Source: a virus
Virus record (IMG/VR): IMGVR_UViG_3300035168_000068
Location: 1 to 42,720 of that record
Reading direction: 5' to 3' (one strand)
Length of the DNA: 42,720 nucleotides
The notes beneath the pieces are model-generated. The model did no database searches and was not told where the DNA came from. It worked only from the letters and a program-made list of their open reading frames with translations. Shown here in pieces: positions 2,513 through 42,640 of the stretch (the stretch's first letter is position 1; every line of letters begins with the position of its first letter). A program made the position numbers and the translations under genes.

Positions 2513-3492
2513 CTACTTGGCTTTGCGAGACTCGCCCCCGTACTCAACACCAATAGCATCCAACACCTTGCCCATGCCCAAGTTGTTGATGCAGTAATTC
2601 AACTGCTTAGGGTGGCTTTTCGCCATACGTTGAAACCGGTTCTGTCCAGCTTCAGATGCACTCCGAACATGCAGAACATGCAACCTGTCCGGTTCTCACC
2701 CATGTCGTAAATCTTGGAGTACGGCAACTTCCTATCACGGATGTAGTCCCAAATATCCTGCTCAGTCCAAAACAACATTGGGGCGCTGCTCGGGTCGCGA
2801 GTGTCAAAAATATTGCACTGGTGCCGTTTCTCTCGCAGTCCGCCTTCGGCGGCCATGATCCCCATATACCGCTTTCGCCCGCTCTCCTTGCTGTAGGTAT
2901 CCAGCGGCTCTTTCTTCAGGATGTCGCAGCAAAGCTCCGTCGCTGAAAAGTTCTGCGCCAACAGTGACCTCCACTTCTCCGGCAGCTTACTGGCCTTTGA
3001 ATAAACCCCGTTCTGCTTAAACCCCGTATCGTAAAGTCGGTAGGTGTTAGCCCATTTCGGATTGTCCTTTTCGTTCTTGAGGATTCGCAGCATTCGAGAG
3101 ACTTTTTTACTAACAACCGGGTAACCTTCGTTCAAAACCACGTCTCTGAAAGTCCGCTTTGGCCGAACAATAATTACATCTCGCTCTGGATTATTCGCCT
3201 TAATCTCATTCACGAACAGCACAATCTCCGGGTACTCAAGGCCGGTATTGCTAAATACCGCCGGCACATCTGGATATAGACTCCAAACTAAATCAAGCAG
3301 AACCATAGAGTCCTTCCCTCCGCTGAATGCCACATAAACTGCACCGTCCCAGTGCTCGTACCAAGAGCGGATACGAGCTTGGCTAATTTGTACCTTGTCT
3401 TCAAGGGATAGACGTTGGCGTAGAATGAGAGCCTTCTTTTGCACCATAGACAGGCTAACATCTACCTCAACATTAGTAATGGATTCGTTCAT
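2513..3492 (-). pseudogene. PAPS reductase/ATP-pyrophosphatase-family protein, frameshifted near the 3' end
   Basis: The family binds ATP through a PP-loop and includes PAPS reductases and DndC-like enzymes; the phage members have no settled role. The PP-loop VAFSGGKDSMVLL lies near residue 55, and a cysteine motif GCMFC lies near the C-terminus. In the first frame the protein stops at 2599 after an atypical tail (297 aa). From about 2650-2656 the -1 frame continues as NRFQRMAKSHPKQLNYC and LGMGKVLDAIGVEY to a TAG at 2513-2515, which is the usual family ending. Restoring one base (CTGAAGC to CTGGAAGC) would give 326 aa. The start has a good AAAGGA site. Either the gene is recently broken or this is a sequencing error. 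Confidence 0.85.
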
Positions 3493-3508: not shown

Positions 3509-4000
3509 TCAACCCAGCCTGCAACATGACTCTTCCGGTCTGGATGGAATACCCGCACCAGCCACAGAGCTTGGCGTAGTGACGCAAGCGGTACAAAGAG
3601 TGTGTTCGGCGTTGGCCCAAGCGCATGATTCGCCAGTGCGCTGAATGCACTGTCGGCAGTCATCATCGGTGCATCCGCAGATTTGGCATACACCTGATGG
3701 ATGATAAGGTTTTGCCTGTTCTTTCATCATTTCAGATGAAGCCACCATCAATGCTATGTCATCAATTACCCTTGCGATTCCATAGACCAACCCCTTATGC
3801 CATTTTCTGCTGTGGGAAAAATCGTAAAAATCGTCAGATAACATGAGTAGTCGACAATAAATTTCACGCCGTAATTCGTTTATTTTATTCCCACGATACC
3901 AGCCGTTAGTTGCCCATGCTGTCACTCGGTACGCATACTTAACCTTTCCCGGAAGCTCAACCCAAAACCACACACTAAAAAAAGCTTTAATCAGTTTCAT
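3509..4000 (-). CDS. Phage protein with cysteine-rich motif (163 aa)
   Basis: Function unknown. Residues 1-100 include an aromatic-rich N-terminus (FFSVWFWVELPG) and a helical segment. Residues about 104-140 carry a dense cysteine motif, CQICGCTDDDCRQCIQ followed by GESCAWANAEHTLCTAC, a pattern seen in many small early phage proteins and likely to bind metal. After the last cysteine of this motif the tail is low in recognisable structure, and another frame also stays open there, so the extreme C-terminus could be altered. It lies upstream of the PAPS-reductase-like gene in the early unit. Confidence 0.7.
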   Translation of the reverse strand: MKLIKAFFSVWFWVELPGKVKYAYRVTAWATNGWYRGNKINELRREIYCRLLMLSDDFYDFSHSRKWHKGLVYGIARVIDDIALMVASSEMMKEQAKPYHPSGVCQICGCTDDDCRQCIQRTGESCAWANAEHTLCTACVTTPSSVAGAGIPSRPEESCCRLG

Positions 4001-4022
4001 TTATCACCCCTGCTTCCTGTGG

Positions 4023-4250
4023 TTAAACACCTGTCAACATCCGCAGATGCGCCAGCTCTTCACTATAGACTTTCAAATACCTTGCTATTTTTCCATCCGG
4101 AAACAATCGGCCAATCCCTTTTAGTTCGGCTTCGGCATCGCTAAATTTTTTCGGCAAGTCTTCATGTTCTTTGGGATGGAAAATATACCCTCGGCAACCA
4201 CTCACAATTTCGAATATTTGAATCTTTACATGGCGTTCTGAAATGACCAT
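4023..4250 (-). CDS. Hypothetical small early protein (75 aa)
   Basis: I do not recognise this protein. It is soluble and mixed alpha/beta in composition, with a KEHEDLPKKF segment near residue 26 and a helical C-terminus (YLKVYSEELAHLRML). It ends 22 bp before the cysteine-rich gene and starts 2 bp after the DUF4224-like gene, so it sits tightly in the early unit. Confidence 0.6.
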   Translation of the reverse strand: MVISERHVKIQIFEIVSGCRGYIFHPKEHEDLPKKFSDAEAELKGIGRLFPDGKIARYLKVYSEELAHLRMLTGV

Positions 4251-4252
4251 GC

Positions 4253-4465
4253 TTACCTCCTGAACTCGATTTCTTTGGTTTCAACCTGGGCAGGACTTAG
4301 TCCCATGGCTGCATCAACTGCTGTAATAGTGGTAAACGGCTTGCCGTCCTTGCCATACAGGAAACGCACGTTTTGCCCTCGCAAAATTTTTTCTAATGAC
4401 TCACGAGTTTTACAGCCCGTGCCGGCTTGCAGCTGCTCGTAGCTAAGTAAAGGTGTATCGATCAT
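4253..4465 (-). CDS. DUF4224-like protein (70 aa)
   Basis: The N-terminus LLSYEQLQAGTGCKTRESLEK and then RFLYGKDGKPFTTITAVDAA follow the DUF4224 pattern: a conserved LS-x-EEL-x-x-hTG start and a 'G-P-h-h' strand. Such proteins are common next to early phage genes and are thought to be small DNA-binding or accessory factors; no activity is established. Its start overlaps the stop of the GemA-like gene by four bases, indicating coupled translation. Confidence 0.6.
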   Translation of the reverse strand: MIDTPLLSYEQLQAGTGCKTRESLEKILRGQNVRFLYGKDGKPFTTITAVDAAMGLSPAQVETKEIEFRR

Positions 4466-5437: not shown

Positions 5438-8188
5438 TTAATTATCATCATGTCTAGAATGATCCGGAGACGCGTACAGCCCAAACGTCTCCAGCCTGTT
5501 GGTACTCAACGCATCCAGATGCGCCATGCGTTTGGATGCAATCACGCGCTCGATGCCGCTTTTAACAATCACCCCGGACGCGCTCAGCTGCTTGTTTAAC
5601 GCCTGCGGCGATTTAATCGGCAGCGCATTCCAGCGTTCGCGCAAGGCCGGTGTGTGGGCAATATGGTCAATGATGTGGCCGGGCCTGATTAGCAGGCACA
5701 GCTCGCCAATGCCGTCGATGTCCATCACTTCATACTTGTACGGATGATTAAAGCGCCCGGCATCGATCTCGCTGAGCGCCATTTCAATAATCCATACCCA
5801 CGGTTCGCGGTCGGCGTCGGTTTCGGCGATATGCGCATTCATTTCCGCGATCAGATCATCAACAAAACCGCCCTGGCGTGGATCGATGCCGGAAAAGTCG
5901 CACAATAGCTTCCAAGCCGTCAGCACTGCCGAGTAGTTGTCCACCATCCGCCGCGCTCCGTCGTCGTCAGACGGCGCTCGGCAATTGTCAAAGCAATAGG
6001 CTCTGGCTTTATCCATGCTGTCGTGGATCGCGGTCTTGTCTTGCTTGACCAAGTAGCCCAGCCATTGCTTAACCGGAAACTCCGGCAAACCCGGCGGCAG
6101 CATTGCGCCTTTTTTACCGGACAGATCGGTTCTGATGATCTTGCCGATCAGCGACCGCACCGGCACATCTTCCCCGGCCAGCAGCACCGGAGCCGACAGC
6201 ACAAACTCAGTCATATCGGAGCCCCGACGAGTCACGGTGTATTGATAAGACTCTTGGAGCATGGCCACCGCCTTATCGATCACATCTTGCCGGCGGGCTG
6301 ATATTTCTTCCCAGCCGACCGGGTGCGAGGTATGAGAAACGCTGGTCAACAGCCGGAACTCGGTTTGCAGCGATTGCCCGGAAAACATGGTAAAGCTGAT
6401 GGTCTGCTCCATTTGCTTAATCAGCGTCGATTTACCGGCCCCCTTGTTCGCCTGCATCATCATGTGTGGCCAGAAGCCGATGATGGTTTTCAAATGCCCG
6501 CCTAAGCCCCATACCAATGGGATAACTGCCGCATTGCGCCGAAACGTGCCTTGATAGGCGTAGATCACCGTTGCCGCTTGATCTATCGACCCGCTGGGAA
6601 ACAGCAGGTTGTGATACGGGCATTGTTTATGCGGGTCGGTAAAAAAAGTATCCGGTCCCTCGTTAACCACCAAAGCACCCTGACGCCAGCACAGGCCGAC
6701 AAAGTTGGACGCGGTGCGTTGGCCCAGCGCGGCGCTACGCTCCAGGATGTTAATCAGCCGCAGGAACGCCGGTTTTTTAAAAATCGGCCCAATCCGGCCC
6801 CACATGTCCGCGTTATGCAGCCGGTCATCCTGAATCACCTTGCGTAACAGCTGGTTGCCGTGGCGTGGCGTTTGTACGGATAGCGCCATCAGCATTTCGG
6901 GGTTATTGTCAGGTTTGCCGGTCATGGTAGATTTAGCGCTGGCAATGTTCACTCGGGTCAAGGCAGCAATACGAAAGCCGCACAGATCTTCCTTTTTTTC
7001 GACTTTCTTCCGTGCGCCGGTCTCTTCGTCTTCCTCCATCGTCAGACTGACAACCTGGGTAAAGTCCTCTCGAATCCGGTACTTCCAATAAGTCGCAAAG
7101 TCATGTTCAGGTAGCCATAAACGCTTCCTGCCCAGTTCTTTTTCGCCTGAAAGCCCCGGAATAGCCCAGTTTTCTAACTTCCGGAGACGCCGCTTTAGCT
7201 CCTCGATATTGCCTTCAGGCTTGGTTTTCAGGATGTCGTTAACATCGCTCCAGGAATGGTTTACCCAGTCGCTCTGGTCCTGAAAAATAGCGGTGATGCG
7301 CTTATCAACCAGCAATTCATACAATCGCCAAGCCGCTTCTTGCCCAGCACGTTTGCCGAATTTATCTGGCTCGTCGTTATCCATGCAGATAATCACGCGC
7401 TTGCCGATTAAAAACGCCCAGTCGATAGCGTCAACATTAATCCCGCGCACCGCTACCGCCGTAGTTTTATGCAGATTACAGCTGGCGATGCTCATCACGT
7501 TGATAGGCGATTCGACCACGTACACGGTTTCACTCGCTTTGAGTTCGGCCAAGTCCATAACCCAGACATGACCAAGCTTCTCGCCCTGACACTGGGTTTT
7601 AACGCCGCCATTCAGCGTAGCATCGATAAAGCGCAGATCCACTGCCACAATGTTTCCTGGATTCATTGTGCGCACGATAAACGCCGCTGCCGGTCCGCCG
7701 TGGCCGATCTCGCCGGGGTTGTGCTTGTCGGACGTATAGCTATTAAAGCCGACCGATTTACATTTAATAGCCCGATCAATCACCGCACCGCTAATGCCCC
7801 TGCCGCTTAAATACTCCTTTACCTGGGCAGACTGCTTGATGCACTTATCGGCGATAAATTCAGCTAAAGACTGTTTTTCCTTTGGTGCATCAGGTTTGTT
7901 GTATTGAGGCTTAGCAATGTTGTACTCCTCGTGCAGCCAGTCGATAGCCGCTGCCACATCAAGATCTTTGACATACATCACCAAATCAATGCAGGTGCCG
8001 CCGACTTTATCGCCGCCGCTCCAGTCCTTCCAGCGCTGCTCGCCGTTGCGGTGATAAACCGACAGGCTGGGGGTTTTGTCGTTATGATGCGGGCTTTTGT
8101 AATTACCATTGCCGCCTGGACGCTTTAACCCCAACCGGCCTGCAAGATCGTGCAGGTCGATACGCTCTTTTAAGATGTCTATAGTCAT
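5438..8188 (-). CDS. Phage primase-helicase (916 aa)
   Basis: This is the main replication protein, expected to prime and unwind phage DNA. Residues 10-92 resemble the CHC2-type primase zinc-binding domain (YKSPHHNDKTPSLSVY), but the cysteines are missing or replaced by histidines. A Toprim domain follows, with Glu226 in VVESP and the acidic pair in CMDNDEPD (270-274). A Walker A motif, NKGAGKST, is at about 581-588, placing an ATPase/helicase domain in the C-terminal half. The stop codon of the upstream DUF3310 gene overlaps the start (ATGA). The size and domain order agree with single-protein replication modules of phages and P4-type satellites. Confidence 0.92.
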   Translation of the reverse strand: MTIDILKERIDLHDLAGRLGLKRPGGNGNYKSPHHNDKTPSLSVYHRNGEQRWKDWSGGDKVGGTCIDLVMYVKDLDVAAAIDWLHEEYNIAKPQYNKPDAPKEKQSLAEFIADKCIKQSAQVKEYLSGRGISGAVIDRAIKCKSVGFNSYTSDKHNPGEIGHGGPAAAFIVRTMNPGNIVAVDLRFIDATLNGGVKTQCQGEKLGHVWVMDLAELKASETVYVVESPINVMSIASCNLHKTTAVAVRGINVDAIDWAFLIGKRVIICMDNDEPDKFGKRAGQEAAWRLYELLVDKRITAIFQDQSDWVNHSWSDVNDILKTKPEGNIEELKRRLRKLENWAIPGLSGEKELGRKRLWLPEHDFATYWKYRIREDFTQVVSLTMEEDEETGARKKVEKKEDLCGFRIAALTRVNIASAKSTMTGKPDNNPEMLMALSVQTPRHGNQLLRKVIQDDRLHNADMWGRIGPIFKKPAFLRLINILERSAALGQRTASNFVGLCWRQGALVVNEGPDTFFTDPHKQCPYHNLLFPSGSIDQAATVIYAYQGTFRRNAAVIPLVWGLGGHLKTIIGFWPHMMMQANKGAGKSTLIKQMEQTISFTMFSGQSLQTEFRLLTSVSHTSHPVGWEEISARRQDVIDKAVAMLQESYQYTVTRRGSDMTEFVLSAPVLLAGEDVPVRSLIGKIIRTDLSGKKGAMLPPGLPEFPVKQWLGYLVKQDKTAIHDSMDKARAYCFDNCRAPSDDDGARRMVDNYSAVLTAWKLLCDFSGIDPRQGGFVDDLIAEMNAHIAETDADREPWVWIIEMALSEIDAGRFNHPYKYEVMDIDGIGELCLLIRPGHIIDHIAHTPALRERWNALPIKSPQALNKQLSASGVIVKSGIERVIASKRMAHLDALSTNRLETFGLYASPDHSRHDDN

Positions 8189-9525: not shown

Positions 9526-9755
9526 GAACGCCCTCCTATTTCTTTAACTTGTAAAATCCGCCGAGCTACCTTGACTGCGTGGCTGTAGGCGCCAATCAGC
9601 GTATAGTCGTTATCCATGCAGACCATGCCGATGCGGACGCAGGCATTGACGTAATTGACGCTTAATCCCATCTTCGTGATGGAATCGGCTATTCGAATCG
9701 CGAGCCGGGCTTTTCTCTCGCCGTTTGGTATGGGTAGTGAAGTCACAAGTGCCAT
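9522..9755 (-). CDS. Hypothetical small early protein (77 aa)
   Basis: Not recognised. The protein is predicted to be helical with two cysteines (NACVRIGMVCMDND), and no membrane segment is obvious. It overlaps the recombinase stop at one end and the next gene at the other, within the early operon. Confidence 0.55.
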   Translation of the reverse strand: MALVTSLPIPNGERKARLAIRIADSITKMGLSVNYVNACVRIGMVCMDNDYTLIGAYSHAVKVARRILQVKEIGGRS

Positions 9756-10363
9756 TAGCCCACCTCCTGCATAGTGTTCTGCAACGTTGTTTTATCCGGC
9801 TGGGTGTAAATCGCCGTACTGTTGATGTTTTTGTGAAGAAGAACCGCCATAGCCACGCCGCGCGGGTCTTTAGCCGTACTGTTATGCATAATGCGCATGG
9901 CCAGCGTATGCCGGAGCCAATGCGGACTAAAACCGGTTAAACCTGCCAACTTTCCCCACTTTTTGGCCTGATGTTGTAAGGATCGTTTGCTCATGCCCTT
10001 ATGCTCGCGACTCATAACCAGCGCCCCGTCGGTTTGCTCAGCGTGTCCCAGTTCCCGCCGCACCTTTAGCAGCAGCTTTAGAGCTTTTTCGGCCTGTTTG
10101 CCCAGGTAAATTTTTCCGGAGACATTGCCTTTGTTGATTTCGCCGCGAATGGTTAAGTGTTTCTCGGATAGCGCCTCTATGGCATCGCCCACCGTGAGCC
10201 CCGCCAGTGCGCCGACACGTATCCCGGTCGAGCGTAACAGCAGCATCCAAGCGTAATCACGCTGTGCCAGAATGCCGCTGTGTGATCTAACAGTTGCAAA
10301 AAGCCGCTTTTCTTCCTGCGGGGTCAAAAAGCGTTCCATGATTTTGCGGTCGAGTGCGCTCAT
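9755..10363 (-). CDS. Short tyrosine recombinase, catalytic domain only (202 aa)
   Basis: All active-site residues of the tyrosine recombinase fold are visible: Arg49 in GIRVGALAGL, Lys78, His148 and Arg151 in HWLRH, His177 in LLHKN and Tyr186 in AIYTQ. The protein has no N-terminal core-binding domain. At about 200 aa it has the size of FimB/FimE-type invertases rather than of phage integrases. It sits in the middle of the early operon, away from the attachment sites, with its start overlapping the stop of a 51-codon gene. It could act in inversion, dimer resolution or recombination of replicating phage DNA; no target site is identified. Confidence 0.85.
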   Translation of the reverse strand: MSALDRKIMERFLTPQEEKRLFATVRSHSGILAQRDYAWMLLLRSTGIRVGALAGLTVGDAIEALSEKHLTIRGEINKGNVSGKIYLGKQAEKALKLLLKVRRELGHAEQTDGALVMSREHKGMSKRSLQHQAKKWGKLAGLTGFSPHWLRHTLAMRIMHNSTAKDPRGVAMAVLLHKNINSTAIYTQPDKTTLQNTMQEVG

Positions 10364-34907: not shown

Positions 34908-36472
34908 GCAGCTCCTATTAATTCCTGTCGAGTTTTCTTTCTAATCAGCACGGTAGTCGGCGCACTGTAAGCGCCGCGCGTAACCATACCCCACACCGAC
35001 GCCATGGCCGCATCGAATAAGTCATCGCCGATTTTGCCATCGGCCATTTTGTAACTTGCATAGCTGGTTTTAGTCACTTGCGGAACGATGTTAGGCAGCT
35101 GCCGAACGAACGTTCTAAGGTCTGCCAATTCCGGATCTGATAAATCCTGATCGTCAAAATAGGGGATCGCCGCCTGTTTGTTGTGGAATATCGATCGGAT
35201 GGCTTGCGCCATGCTGTGCTTGGTCATGCCCTCGAAACGAATCGGAGAGAACGCCCATTCCGGCCAAGTACTGGCGGTGCTATCACCGTCGCCAATAGTC
35301 CGGCGGTCGGTTTGCGTTAATCCCAAGGCGTAAAGATCATCATTCAAAGAGGTCAGCATGCCCACGCCGTAAGCGTCGCCCATGGCGGTATCCGGGTTGA
35401 AGTATTGCCAGAGCCCGATTAAATCACGCTTGACCACGTTGTCATCAGCACCGGGCGGCCACGTTCGCACATAAGGGAAGGTGACGAAGTTGCCTATCTG
35501 TTCAGTAACAACCAAAGCATGGCGGGAGCTGGTCGGGTTTTCGCCATGTCCGCCGGCGTCATAACCGAAGCCGATCAGGCCGCGCTTGCGGTAGACAGCG
35601 CCCGGTAACGGTGCGGCTAGTTGTAACCCGGCCTGCAAGCCCACTTGCATGGCACGGCGCACGTATTTTTCCCAGATCAGGTTTCGGCTGGAAATATTCC
35701 GGCACAGCAGCTGCCTGATGTATTCGTCAGGTGACAATTGGTCGCGCATGTCGAGCATGAAGGCTTCGTTAAGGATGCCCATTTCCATGCCGAGATAGGC
35801 GTCAATGGTCGATAGCACATGGTAATGACCGCCGGCTACTAGATCGGTTAGGGTGTCTGCGCCTTTGAATACACCGGTAATTCTTATTTGCGGGTCGTTT
35901 TTAGCTTCCTTGGATGCGCCCAAGCGGCGTGATGCCCCCATCATCAAAAGAAACCTTGAAAATAAGCGCTCTCTTGGCATGTCATCGACTTCTTCCAGAG
36001 AGGCTTCGGTTAAATCGCCCCCGTCAACTTGCGCCATGATGCCGTAGGCTTGGGCTTTACTGCGGTTGGCGAACTGGTAATAGGTGTCGGCAAATTGCTT
36101 GCGGCCGGACTTAAAGTTCAGCCACGCTTCTAGGATTGGCGAACGGCGTATTGCGTCGAGATGATAACCCAGGTTAACCAAGGACTGAGCTTCACGCGGG
36201 GCAACGATGCCCAGCTCTTGGTCGGCTTCGGTGGCGTTGAATTTAAGCAGATACAGTTCTTTGATCGCCGTTTTTCCGGTCCGACGACAGGAATAGTCGA
36301 TAGTGTTCTGGTGCTGGTCCATTTCGATGCATTTAAGGATCTGCATCGGGTCGAGTTCGACATTGTGGACGTGCTTGTGCCACAAGGCGTGGTCATCCTT
36401 ATAGCGCATCACCTCCGTTTCGGCGATGTTGCGCATTTCTATGCGTTTGTGAGGGGGTAGGCGTTCAGCCAT
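34904..36472 (-). CDS. terL: Terminase large subunit (522 aa)
   Basis: This is the packaging motor that cuts and translocates DNA. A Walker A-type motif is CRRTGKTA near residue 62. The likely acidic Walker B is in ASLEEVDDMP. Nuclease-domain features are GFGYDAGGHGENP, DTAMGDAYGVG and DDLFDAAMASVWG toward the end. The ATG at 36472 is preferred to a TTG at 36478. It overlaps the cytosine-MTase-like gene upstream, so it is translated from the same message. Headful or cohesive-end packaging cannot be told from sequence alone. Confidence 0.92.
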   Translation of the reverse strand: MAERLPPHKRIEMRNIAETEVMRYKDDHALWHKHVHNVELDPMQILKCIEMDQHQNTIDYSCRRTGKTAIKELYLLKFNATEADQELGIVAPREAQSLVNLGYHLDAIRRSPILEAWLNFKSGRKQFADTYYQFANRSKAQAYGIMAQVDGGDLTEASLEEVDDMPRERLFSRFLLMMGASRRLGASKEAKNDPQIRITGVFKGADTLTDLVAGGHYHVLSTIDAYLGMEMGILNEAFMLDMRDQLSPDEYIRQLLCRNISSRNLIWEKYVRRAMQVGLQAGLQLAAPLPGAVYRKRGLIGFGYDAGGHGENPTSSRHALVVTEQIGNFVTFPYVRTWPPGADDNVVKRDLIGLWQYFNPDTAMGDAYGVGMLTSLNDDLYALGLTQTDRRTIGDGDSTASTWPEWAFSPIRFEGMTKHSMAQAIRSIFHNKQAAIPYFDDQDLSDPELADLRTFVRQLPNIVPQVTKTSYASYKMADGKIGDDLFDAAMASVWGMVTRGAYSAPTTVLIRKKTRQELIGAA

Positions 36473-37070
36473 TGACAATCATTCCCCATTGATCAGCCAT
36501 AGCAGCTGCAATGCCAGGATACGTTCTACTTCTTTCACGCCATCTATCAGGACCTGGTGGTAATCGATGCAATCGAGAACTGATTCGTCCGGGTTTTTTA
36601 CCTCCGCCCCTTGTTTGATCTGGATCAACAGGATTTGATTGTTCAAGCTTTGTAAGATTCCGTAGCCATAAGCACGTAGATTTCCATTCAGGATGCCCGT
36701 GGTGGAATGGCTGGATAATTTGAGTCGGTTTCATCCATGCTGTAGATAAATGCCCTATAGGATTTTCAATAGCTATTCTTTCGCATGGAACGCTATACAG
36801 CGACTTCACAAACCTAACTGCATCATTTCTCTTTTGTTGGCGATTTAAGTTATCTTTTAACCATCTCACGCCTGAGTTTGAAAGATACGTGCATGGGGGA
36901 TGAGCAATAATCAAGTCCCATGGTTCATAAAGACAATCAAAAACATCACCCTGATAATGTGGACCAGGCCTTTCGGTTGGTTCAAGATCACAACTCATAG
37001 CATCGTGACCACGAGCAATAAAGGCATCACGGACAATTCCGCTAAATTCGCACGCAATAAGAACCTTCAT
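36465..37070 (-). CDS. Phage DNA cytosine-methyltransferase-like protein (201 aa)
   Basis: MKVLIACEFSGIVRDAFIAR at the start looks like an AdoMet site. IIAHPPCTYLSNSGVRW carries the PPC motif of cytosine C5 methyltransferases. IAIENPIGHLS and RWRERSRTYPGIAAAMADQW complete the pattern of a family common next to phage terminases. It would modify DNA at packaging or protect it; activity and target are unproven. Its start and stop overlap the neighbours. Confidence 0.8.
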   Translation of the reverse strand: MKVLIACEFSGIVRDAFIARGHDAMSCDLEPTERPGPHYQGDVFDCLYEPWDLIIAHPPCTYLSNSGVRWLKDNLNRQQKRNDAVRFVKSLYSVPCERIAIENPIGHLSTAWMKPTQIIQPFHHGHPEWKSTCLWLRNLTKLEQSNPVDPDQTRGGGKKPGRISSRLHRLPPGPDRWRERSRTYPGIAAAMADQWGMIVNG

Positions 37071-38402: not shown

Positions 38403-38870
38403 CTATTTTGATTTTGAGATTATTCTCTTGATATGGTCAACGCTTACCGATTCATTCAACTCACATCTAATGCGCTCATGAATCTCATTAGCAGAAAGGC
38501 CGTCAGCATGCATGGATATGATAACCCGGTTGCGCTGGTAGCGCATCCAAACGCTATAGCGAGGCACATAAGCATAGTGCTTTTCATCCTGGACAGCATC
38601 GCAGCTACTCAAAATCGCCCACATCGTCAGGAAGTTATCGACGCCGATAGATGCGGCCACATCAAGCCAATGGGCAGCTAGTCCGATTTCTCGCAACTCA
38701 GCCAGCCGCGAATCGTCGCGCGGCGCGTTTTTTTTTGAAAACCTGTCGGCATTGCAGATATCCAGGTACCCACCCTGTCCTATAGGGGAGTGGGTTAAAC
38801 CATGCCGAGCCCCCACCCCATAGCCATCCCCCGTTATTTCATTGTTTGAGTTGCGCCTTACTGTATCCAT
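38403..38870 (-). CDS. Putative Mor/HTH-type regulator (155 aa)
   Basis: The C-terminal 50 residues (YSVWMRYQRNRVIISMHADG then SANEIHERIRCELNESVSVD) resemble the helix-turn-helix of Mor/C-like late activators: a basic 'R-x-x-x-I' helix, a G-x-S-x-x-E-I turn and a second recognition helix ending DHIKRIIS. The N-terminal part is unlike Mor, so the call is tentative. It lies at the head of the late genes, where a late activator would be expected. AGGG is present before the ATG. Confidence 0.5.
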   Translation of the reverse strand: MDTVRRNSNNEITGDGYGVGARHGLTHSPIGQGGYLDICNADRFSKKNAPRDDSRLAELREIGLAAHWLDVAASIGVDNFLTMWAILSSCDAVQDEKHYAYVPRYSVWMRYQRNRVIISMHADGLSANEIHERIRCELNESVSVDHIKRIISKSK

Positions 38871-39099: not shown

Positions 39100-40122
39100 C
39101 TAAGCCCCCTTTAAAACAGCAGCCAAACCAGTGACAGGCGTCCTAATCTGAGCCAGTGGATTACATCTATCGCTATCAACCCTCAACCTCTGAGTTGCCA
39201 TCCTGATGTAAATAGCTGTGGTCTCAGGTCTCGAATGACCCATTAGAGTCTGAATGCTGCTCAGATTTAGCCCGCCCTCAGCCAACCGTGTACCGTACAA
39301 ATGCCGAAAAGCATGAGGATGCAAGATCGAATCCGGCAGCCCAACCATTCGGCCATGTTTACGCACCACTTCGAACACAGACTTTGGTGTTAGTCGGCGG
39401 CGCTCACCGTAGTACAAATGCTCGGCAACCCGTTTATTGTTTGTCGACACAAACAACACCCGGTCATTGTTATCCAGCGTCCGAACGATATTGCCAATAT
39501 CAGGATGCCCCAGGTAAGCGCGAATAAACAGCCGCGCCTCATCAGGGGCCGGAACCTCGCGCTGCTTATTGCCCTTTTCCCTGACCCGCAACGTGAGCAA
39601 CTCCTTGCCGGTCTTATCGCGTTCAAAAATCAGATCCGAATCATTAAGGCCGACCAATCCGCTAACCCTAATCCCGCAGCCCAACAACGTCGCCATCATC
39701 GCCGCATCACGAACCCCTAGAAAAGTAGAAAGGTCAGGATTGAACAACAGCTTCTCAGCATCCCCCAGCCGCATATACATCTTGTCCGGATCGCCCACCT
39801 TCGGCAGCACCAAAATAGCAGCCGGATTATCTCGACGCTTACCCTTGGCAACCAACCAAGCAAAGAACCCACGCAAACATGAAATAATTGGCTTACGACT
39901 GACAGGCTTTACGCCGGCCTTTAACTGATGCATCCCGCAAAACTCCTCAAGATCGTCCGGTCGCGCGCTCAAATGGTCCATCCCTCTACCAGCCAAAAAC
40001 ACCCGCAACCGCTCCAAATACAAAAAATACTTACCATAAGTCCTCGGGCTCAGGTTCTTGCTGTGCTCCAAATAAGAGCACCAACCAGCAGCGACGGCTT
40101 CAAAAGTGCTAACGTCGGACAT
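39100..40122 (-). CDS. XerC/D-like tyrosine recombinase (340 aa)
   Basis: Full two-domain recombinase. The N-terminal SAM-like core-binding domain (residues 5-105) contains LEHSKNLSPRTYGKYFLYLE. The catalytic residues are Arg152 (GCGIRVSGL), Lys183 (REKGNKQ), His270/Arg273 (HAFRH), His296 (GHSRPE) and Tyr305 (IYIRM). The ATG at 40122 is preferred to 40251 because GGGTGA precedes it. The gene is unrelated to the attL integrase and to the 202-aa recombinase. It is preceded by a 550-bp non-coding stretch with phased repeats. It may resolve dimers or multimers of phage DNA or catalyse a different integration event. Confidence 0.87.
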   Translation of the reverse strand: MSDVSTFEAVAAGWCSYLEHSKNLSPRTYGKYFLYLERLRVFLAGRGMDHLSARPDDLEEFCGMHQLKAGVKPVSRKPIISCLRGFFAWLVAKGKRRDNPAAILVLPKVGDPDKMYMRLGDAEKLLFNPDLSTFLGVRDAAMMATLLGCGIRVSGLVGLNDSDLIFERDKTGKELLTLRVREKGNKQREVPAPDEARLFIRAYLGHPDIGNIVRTLDNNDRVLFVSTNNKRVAEHLYYGERRRLTPKSVFEVVRKHGRMVGLPDSILHPHAFRHLYGTRLAEGGLNLSSIQTLMGHSRPETTAIYIRMATQRLRVDSDRCNPLAQIRTPVTGLAAVLKGA

Positions 40123-40176
40123 CAAATCACCCAGAAAAAAGGAAGGGCAGGGGGAGAACAGTCCGTGGACTGTGTA

Positions 40177-40204
40177 TTTATACGTATATTTAACATGTAA
40201 CCAA
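40177..40204 (-). promoter_or_regulatory. Candidate promoter for the leftward recombinase/late unit
   Basis: On the minus strand TTGGTT (40199-40204) and TATAAA (40177-40182) are 16 bp apart. A palindrome CAGTCC-gt-GGACTG at 40159-40172 lies just downstream and could be an operator, and CAACAA-c-TTGTTG at 40213-40225 lies just upstream. The -10 is good, the -35 only fair. Confidence 0.45.
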
Positions 40205-40246
40205 CTGAAAAACAACAACTTGTTGCATAATTTTGACCCGCAAAAA

Positions 40247-40528
40247 CACACAAAACTTCCGTGTAGCCAAAAAACTTTTGTGTATATTAGAACGTGCTTA
40301 TTTGCTTATTTCGTGGGGAAGCTTTTCTTTATATATCTCTCTCTTTCTTAATAAAAATAAATAGATAGATAGATAGGAGCGGAAAACGGCAAAACCGGGA
40401 CTTGTGTAGAGTAAAGGCGGCTTTGTGTGGATTTAGACAAAAGAAGTGTAGATTTAAAGCGGTTTTGTGTAGTAATAATTAATAAAAGCAAATATAAAAC
40501 AACGGCTTACAAAGCAAGCTACACAAAA
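40247..40528. repeat. Phased TTGTGTAG repeat array (iteron-like)
   Basis: Four GTGT(A/G)G copies begin at 40404, 40425, 40446 and 40467, exactly 21 bp apart. The copies at 40404 and 40446 are alike over most of the 21-bp unit (GTGTAGAgTaAAG..CGG.TTT). Others lie at 40261 and 40280 (19 bp apart). Inverted copies are at 40247-40255 and 40519-40528. TTTTGTGTAG at 40463-40472 and CTACACAAAA at 40519-40528 form a perfect 10-bp inverted pair around an AT-rich spacer. This resembles iterons next to a DNA unwinding element or an activator-binding array. Confidence 0.7.
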
Positions 40529-40604
40529 TATAGGTGTTTTTACACTCCCCCCGCTATCATTTAGCCACAAACGCCCCGTATCTTCTTCTTTTTAATAGGC
40601 AAAA

Positions 40605-40630
40605 AAAAGCCCCTTAAAGAAGGGGCTTTT
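40605..40630. terminator. Bidirectional rho-independent terminator
   Basis: AAAAGCCCCTT-AAAG-AAGGGGCTTTT forms an 11-bp stem. Eight A's start the left side, giving a T run on the minus strand, and the right side ends in TTTT on the plus strand. It closes the 86-aa gene's transcript and insulates the repeat region. Confidence 0.88.
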
Positions 40631-40670
40631 ATGTGTCCAGGAGGATCAGGGTATTATTAACAGCCGGCGC

Positions 40671-42593: not shown

Positions 42594-42640
42594 ACTCTTA
42601 ATCCATGGGTCCAGGGTTCGAATCCCTGACGTCCCACCAA
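42594..42640. repeat. attR core (47-bp direct repeat, right copy)
   Basis: This is identical to 81-127 and contains the tRNA-Lys 3' end from the anticodon loop, without the 5' half. Outside it the sequences differ at once (A instead of G to the left, T instead of A to the right). Host DNA resumes beyond 42640. Confidence 0.95.

Follow-up and report, generated by a model that had tools for sequence, protein, structure and literature searches.

In this work, we analysed a 42,720-nucleotide stretch of viral DNA (IMG/VR record IMGVR_UViG_3300035168_000068; the window) and found a repeat-rich block at ~40170-40528 that is very probably the replication origin of a temperate phage, built on iterons as in SaPIs and PICIs and recognised by the C-terminal domain of a primase-helicase. 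From sequence, we infer that protein binding, DNA melting, helicase loading and origin activity take place at this block. Iterons in two sets flank an AT-rich pyrimidine/purine core, and the 21-bp spacing of the array puts four of the sites along a single helical face. The primase-helicase encoded at 5438-8188 would bind the iterons via its C-terminal winged-helix domain, the core would melt after iteron binding, and the enzyme would then load its own helicase and prime at the core.

A 21-bp-phased repeat array and an AT-rich core form one block

An earlier note on this DNA had described four GTGT(A/G)G units with an exact 21-bp period, and this was confirmed: GTGTAG starts at 40404, 40446 and 40467, and GTGTGG at 40425. 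The fuller word TTGTGTRG is present in three of the four units, and the unit at 40446 reads AAGTGTAG. By motif position, the units span 40402-40409 (TTGTGTAG), 40423-40430 (TTGTGTGG), 40444-40451 (AAGTGTAG) and 40465-40472 (TTGTGTAG), all on the plus strand. The further copies that had been listed were also present, namely GTGTAG at 40261 and GTGTAT, a 5/6 match, at 40280; in the site scan they belong to the plus-strand left-half iterons CCGTGTAG (40259-40266) and TTGTGTAT (40278-40285). The same was true of the inverted copies. One of them, TTTTGTGTG on the minus strand, lies at 40246-40255 (copy 40247-40255), and the other, the distal minus-strand iteron TTTTGTGTAG at 40519-40528, makes a perfect 10-bp inverted pair with 40463-40472.

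The array was then compared with a null set of 1000 dinucleotide shuffles of 40123-40560. A four-unit 21-bp run of 6-mers (at most one mismatch) arose in only one of the 1000 shuffles, and at least five sites within one mismatch of TTGTGTAG were likewise seen in 1/1000. No comparable four-unit 21-bp run was present in any other 440-bp stretch of the 42.7-kb window.

The block proved larger than first described, with an extra site near 40170 and an AT-rich core that separates two halves. The extra site (CTGTGTAT, 40170-40177, plus strand, two mismatches) is a left-half iteron-like site, whose position matches that of the recombinase-proximal site pair of the relatives. The core (TATCTCTCTCTTTCTTAATAAAAATAAATAGATAGATAGATAG, 40334-40378, ~74% AT) runs from pyrimidines to purines, is quasi-palindromic, has the ends TCTCTCTC and GATAGATA (the right one also written TTAATAAAAATAAATAGATAGATAG), and is presumed to be the melting element. 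Based on the layout common to relatives, the iteron/core block in its entirety, and thus the predicted origin, can be placed at 40123-40545, upstream of the recombinase gene. The window showed no second array at a distance, and GC skew was uninformative as origin evidence. Adjoining the predicted origin at 40600-40635 is a strong inverted repeat (AAGCCCCTT/AAGGGGCTTTT), likely an intrinsic terminator.

The block lies in a prophage that encodes a primase-helicase

The window is a prophage, with a tRNA-Lys gene (51-126) at one end and a repeat of the tRNA 3' end near 42600; the stretch at this repeat matches the HP1 attP. Three tyrosine recombinases are encoded. The one at 196-1314, which adjoins the tRNA, is likely the integrase, and a short one of 202 aa (9755-10363) lies in the early region and is kept in yong1 and L010. 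The third, a Xer-like protein (39100-40122, minus strand; Pfam PF00589), is the neighbour of the array, and the late genes, coding for a packaging protein/terminase homolog, portal, head and tail, run leftward from it. A bacterial genome scan with this recombinase gave a single, irrelevant match. In relatives, the recombinase is adjoined by a 155-aa Mor-like protein (38403-38870 in the window, minus strand), which has no Pfam match and whose yong1 homolog is annotated as 'middle operon regulator'; in many of them, the gene order is tyrosine recombinase, Mor-like protein and a large serine integrase at the prophage end. Four contigs (G005, G006, G017 and G029) stop near the recombinase and were considered as physical genome ends, but these stops are prophage boundaries trimmed at a gene start and a tRNA. 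The window also carries cargo-like genes at 2599-3492, 1427-2191 and 36465-37070, which encode a PAPS reductase-like and two DNA methyltransferase-like proteins.

The predicted origin-binding initiator is a 916-aa primase-helicase (5438-8188, minus strand) that matches phrog_5629 and Pfam Toprim_3 and Zn_ribbon_DnaG, with a P-loop recognised by eye. Its C-terminal domain (residues 752-916; 5441-5935, minus strand) is the predicted iteron reader, as a winged-helix model and covariation suggest. The scans of window proteins with PHROGs or Pfam returned no Rep family. The earlier claim that no Rep protein lies nearby, and that the binding protein would therefore be new, was wrong in view of this likely initiator. 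Judging from the coordinates, ~32 kb would separate the predicted origin from the primase gene in the integrated state, and ~7.4 kb once the prophage has excised at the tRNA-Lys repeats.

The geometry of the block is conserved in relatives

Relatives were collected by a terminase search (26 loci) and a recombinase-profile search (80 loci). A layout of ~350 bp is common to ~65 to ~80 of these relatives, plus KS5, Mana, KS14 and FLC5, with a near-fixed order of elements. First come two sites spaced by 8 bp; ~60-80 bp beyond them lie one or two sites in inverted orientation, followed by direct sites and the pyrimidine/purine core. On the far side of the core, three to five direct sites repeat every 21 bp before the last, inverted sites. 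The pyrimidine-to-purine core occupies the equivalent position in nearly all relatives. Upstream of the recombinase, 21 bp was the peak spacing of identical 6-mer pairs in 56 of 81 loci, with secondary spacings of 10, 32, 42 and 53 bp. Between the primase stop and the recombinase start, at least two 21-bp 6-mer pairs were found in 38 of 44 non-redundant loci, compared with a median of 6 loci at other distances.

Pairwise comparisons gave the same picture. In L002, whose recombinase is 85% identical, the core is nearly unchanged relative to the window, and the last three units retain the 21-bp spacing despite diverged surroundings. When the maps of the window and L062 were aligned on the 21-bp array, the array and the distal inverted site agreed within a few bases. 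The repeated word itself varies by phage (CGTGGA, TGTGGA, GTGGCA, CGCGCA, ACACGC, GGACA, GATGGA, TTGCACCC and others). Phasing is kept across relatives and only the word changes, so that the loss of phasing in close relatives that would have refuted the earlier reading was not encountered. Overall, this comparative evidence lends strong support to the initial suggestion of a plasmid-type origin with an unwinding element.

The array goes with the primase-helicase and not with the recombinase

A question raised by the position of the block is whether the repeats are accessory or arm-type sites of the neighbouring tyrosine recombinase, and whether the core serves as its crossover site (attP or a resolution site). 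The array does lie upstream of the recombinase in most relatives, and the quasi-palindromic core would suit such a role. However, the co-occurrence of array and recombinase fails in both directions. In the Burkholderia phages KS5, Mana, KS14, FLC5 and FLC10, a homolog of the primase-helicase (~53-55% identical across 99% of its length) accompanies the array and the pyrimidine/purine core, and the arrays in KS5, Mana and KS14 are of the same geometry; yet no recombinase homolog was detected in these five phages (tblastn E > 0.3; in the stretches searched, and genome-wide for KS14). L049 and L115 show the opposite pattern, in records that may be incomplete: they have the recombinase but none of the three primase-helicase types described below and no array. 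In addition, the attachment sites of the window sit at its tRNA-Lys ends, and the repeated word follows the primase C-terminus more closely than it does the recombinase (see below). We thus consider the recombinase-site explanation very unlikely, and the tie between the array and the Xer-like recombinase that the earlier note had drawn did not hold.

The distribution of the primase-helicase gene points to this protein as the partner of the array. A match was present in the searched sequence of 51 of 82 loci, the gene lying far from the array in yong1 and only the C-terminal part being found in L002; in 50 of the 82 loci, a homolog lies upstream of the recombinase. In 22 of these loci the array occupies the gap between the two genes, the primase stop being 500-675 bp ahead of the recombinase. 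The block also stays intact when the genes around it are separated, with cargo either between array and recombinase (L108, L121, L114, L083 and L081) or between primase and array (L096, L098, L100 and L103). The insertions in the former five loci are varied (PAPS reductase-like, methyltransferase-like and others, by eye), marking a cargo hotspot. In many relatives, as well as in KS5 and Mana, the predicted origin immediately follows the 3' end of the predicted initiator gene, and the two are kilobases apart in the window, yong1 and KS14; the gene is distant from the array in G008 and G011 as well. Within the Burkholderia phages, the array is found between the integrase and the primase in KS5, shortly after the primase in Mana, and upstream of parA in the KS14 group. 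According to a published CoreGenes table, the P2 replication proteins A and B have no homologs in KS5, KS14 and KL3 (PMC3091744).

Furthermore, three types of primase-helicase correspond to three word/spacing classes within a single recombinase family. The window type goes with GTGG/CGCGCA-like words at 21 bp, the L102 type (L102, L052, and the genomes of L042 and L037) with TTGCACCC/GGGTGCA words in ~11-bp steps, and the L079 type (L079, L076 and L050) with GTTA-type words in ~11-bp steps. These sequence comparisons indicate that the array belongs with the primase-helicase and that the recombinase is its neighbour, not its partner.

The repeated word covaries with the primase C-terminal domain

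Across 36 loci, word similarity was best tracked by the identity of primase residues 771-912 (rho 0.45), whereas the rest of the primase (0.14-0.32), the recombinase (0.31) and the Mor-like protein (0.29) were weaker trackers. Rank regression gave weights of 0.40 for the primase C-terminus, 0.11 for the recombinase and 0.07 for the Mor-like protein.

At the level of single residues, R878 and D880 occur in all 11 CGCGCA phages, and R878 occurs in none of the 20 CGTGGA phages. On the best tree of residues 1-770, the CGCGCA/GTGGA class changes six times, only one change being forced by well-supported branches; this residue split taken alone is therefore suggestive and would be only partly proof against shared phylogeny. 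A stronger case is 'ERR' at 880-882, which is found only in L109, L051 and KS5/Mana, all of which have GTGGC words. The three ERR lineages share 55-58% mutual identity over residues 1-770, and each is nearer to non-ERR primases, with some of these comparisons made on partial sequences.

AlphaFold confidently modelled the C-terminal domain as a winged helix (mean pLDDT 92, 41 sequences), in which residues 878-882 lie on the first wing strand. A Foldseek search of the domain against the PDB gave no significant match, the best partial one, with E 0.24, being to the winged helix of pCW3 TcpK on oriT DNA. With phmmer, the primase matched only DnaG primases in the PDB, weakly and over its N-terminal part. 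L002 also encodes, in a gene adjoining its array (3740-4366), a 208-aa protein in which a ribbon-helix-helix domain (Pfam RHH_5, just below cutoff) is fused to the primase C-terminal domain alone; this fusion is possibly a replication regulator or interference factor.

Transcriptional, packaging and partition roles are poorly compatible with the block

The repeats could also form an activator or repressor array for the leftward recombinase/late operon, bound for example by the 155-aa Mor-like protein. The location of the block upstream of this operon and the retention of the Mor-like gene beside the recombinase are consistent with such a role. Against it, the downstream genes vary (terminase operon, serine integrase, parA or cargo) with the block unchanged, the Mor-like protein shows the lowest covariation with the word, and the Burkholderia phages have the array without the recombinase that it supposedly serves. 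The leftward-promoter activator array, offered earlier as the alternative to an origin, is disfavoured because the block goes with the primase-helicase and not with any one downstream gene, and we give it as little chance as the recombinase-site explanation.

Two further roles can be regarded as highly improbable. cos and pac sites usually lie upstream of terminase genes, and the block is indeed at the start of the late/terminase operon in the window, but it is ~16 kb from the terminase in yong1 and beside parA, away from the terminase genes, in KS14. A centromere-like partition or incompatibility site would fit the location upstream of parA in KS14, which lysogenises as a plasmid, but most relatives, like the window, are integrated prophages, the window has no recognised parA gene, and the word tracks the primase.

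The predicted origin resembles those of satellite islands

We compared the predicted replication origin with known systems. In the pri-rep-ori of SaPIs and PICIs (SaPIbov1, SaPI1 and EcCICFT073), two iteron sets flank an AT-rich region, the initiator recognises the iterons through its C-terminal domain, and primase and helicase are sometimes fused (PMC6092414, PMC7581432). The block of the window is laid out similarly, with sites at 40170-40285 and 40402-40528 around 40334-40378, and the relatives are alike; in many of them the predicted origin also lies just 3' of the predicted initiator gene, as is the case for the islands. Unlike these islands, the window family is made up of temperate phages of full size (the window's group and P2-like myophages), and its predicted initiator, at ~900 aa, is a primase-helicase with a DnaG-type zinc ribbon and a Toprim domain. 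Members of the family have in common the 21-bp phasing, the pyrimidine/purine core and the same map of inverted sites. Since portal, head, tail and terminase-like genes are present, the window is a phage and not a PICI; the matching layout and inferred logic suggest that the block would work like a PICI origin within a phage.

Other systems share single features. By description, SCCmec Cch2 with its putative origin is similar in that the C-terminal domain of a helicase binds direct repeats just downstream of its gene, but there are only three 5-nt iterons and a separate primase (PMC7581432). Iteron plasmids of the RepE, pi and Rep_3 type have direct, helically phased iterons beside an AT-rich element; in the window, however, the predicted initiator is a primase-helicase, the iterons lie on both sides of the core with some inverted, and no Rep_3/RepA initiator gene was recognised among the window proteins scanned. 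The lambda ori has a phage-encoded initiator, O, and iterons beside an AT-rich, strand-asymmetric element, as does the predicted origin, but the lambda iterons are embedded in the O coding sequence and the helicase that O recruits is the one of the host, whereas the predicted window initiator has its own helicase and primase. The alpha protein of the satellite phage P4, which acts at ori/crr, binds its origin through a C-terminal domain. As is proposed for the window, a single fused protein serves for both priming and unwinding (PMC7145576). In contrast to P4, the predicted window origin is one block and the primase part is of the DnaG type, as Pfam gives only Zn_ribbon_DnaG and Toprim domains, which sets it apart from the P4 alpha family.

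On balance, we favour the view that the block represents a widespread phage origin module, whose ~350-bp geometry is near-invariant in the window's group and P2-like phages and whose word turns over through a few wing residues of the primase-helicase or through replacement of the whole initiator. Such a module would mean that ordinary phages, too, use the PICI-type origin, which has been described as unique to PICIs, and the code word could set the replication compatibility of co-resident phages and satellites. An origin and initiator can be assigned, as a prediction, for a large temperate-phage group that has isolated Burkholderia phages among its members, and the SaPI/PICI origin layout is seen not to be confined to satellites. 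In the open PMC literature, no mention of an origin was found in two Burkholderia phage genome papers (PMC3091744, PMC5247547), and a description may exist elsewhere. The dozens of natural word/domain pairs offer a system for studying joint changes in initiator and origin specificity, and the word could help to predict which phages and satellites share or disturb each other's replication. The predicted origin of Mana is covered by an open reading frame annotated as 'putative membrane protein' (MT701591, 29021-29707), which is probably not a real gene.
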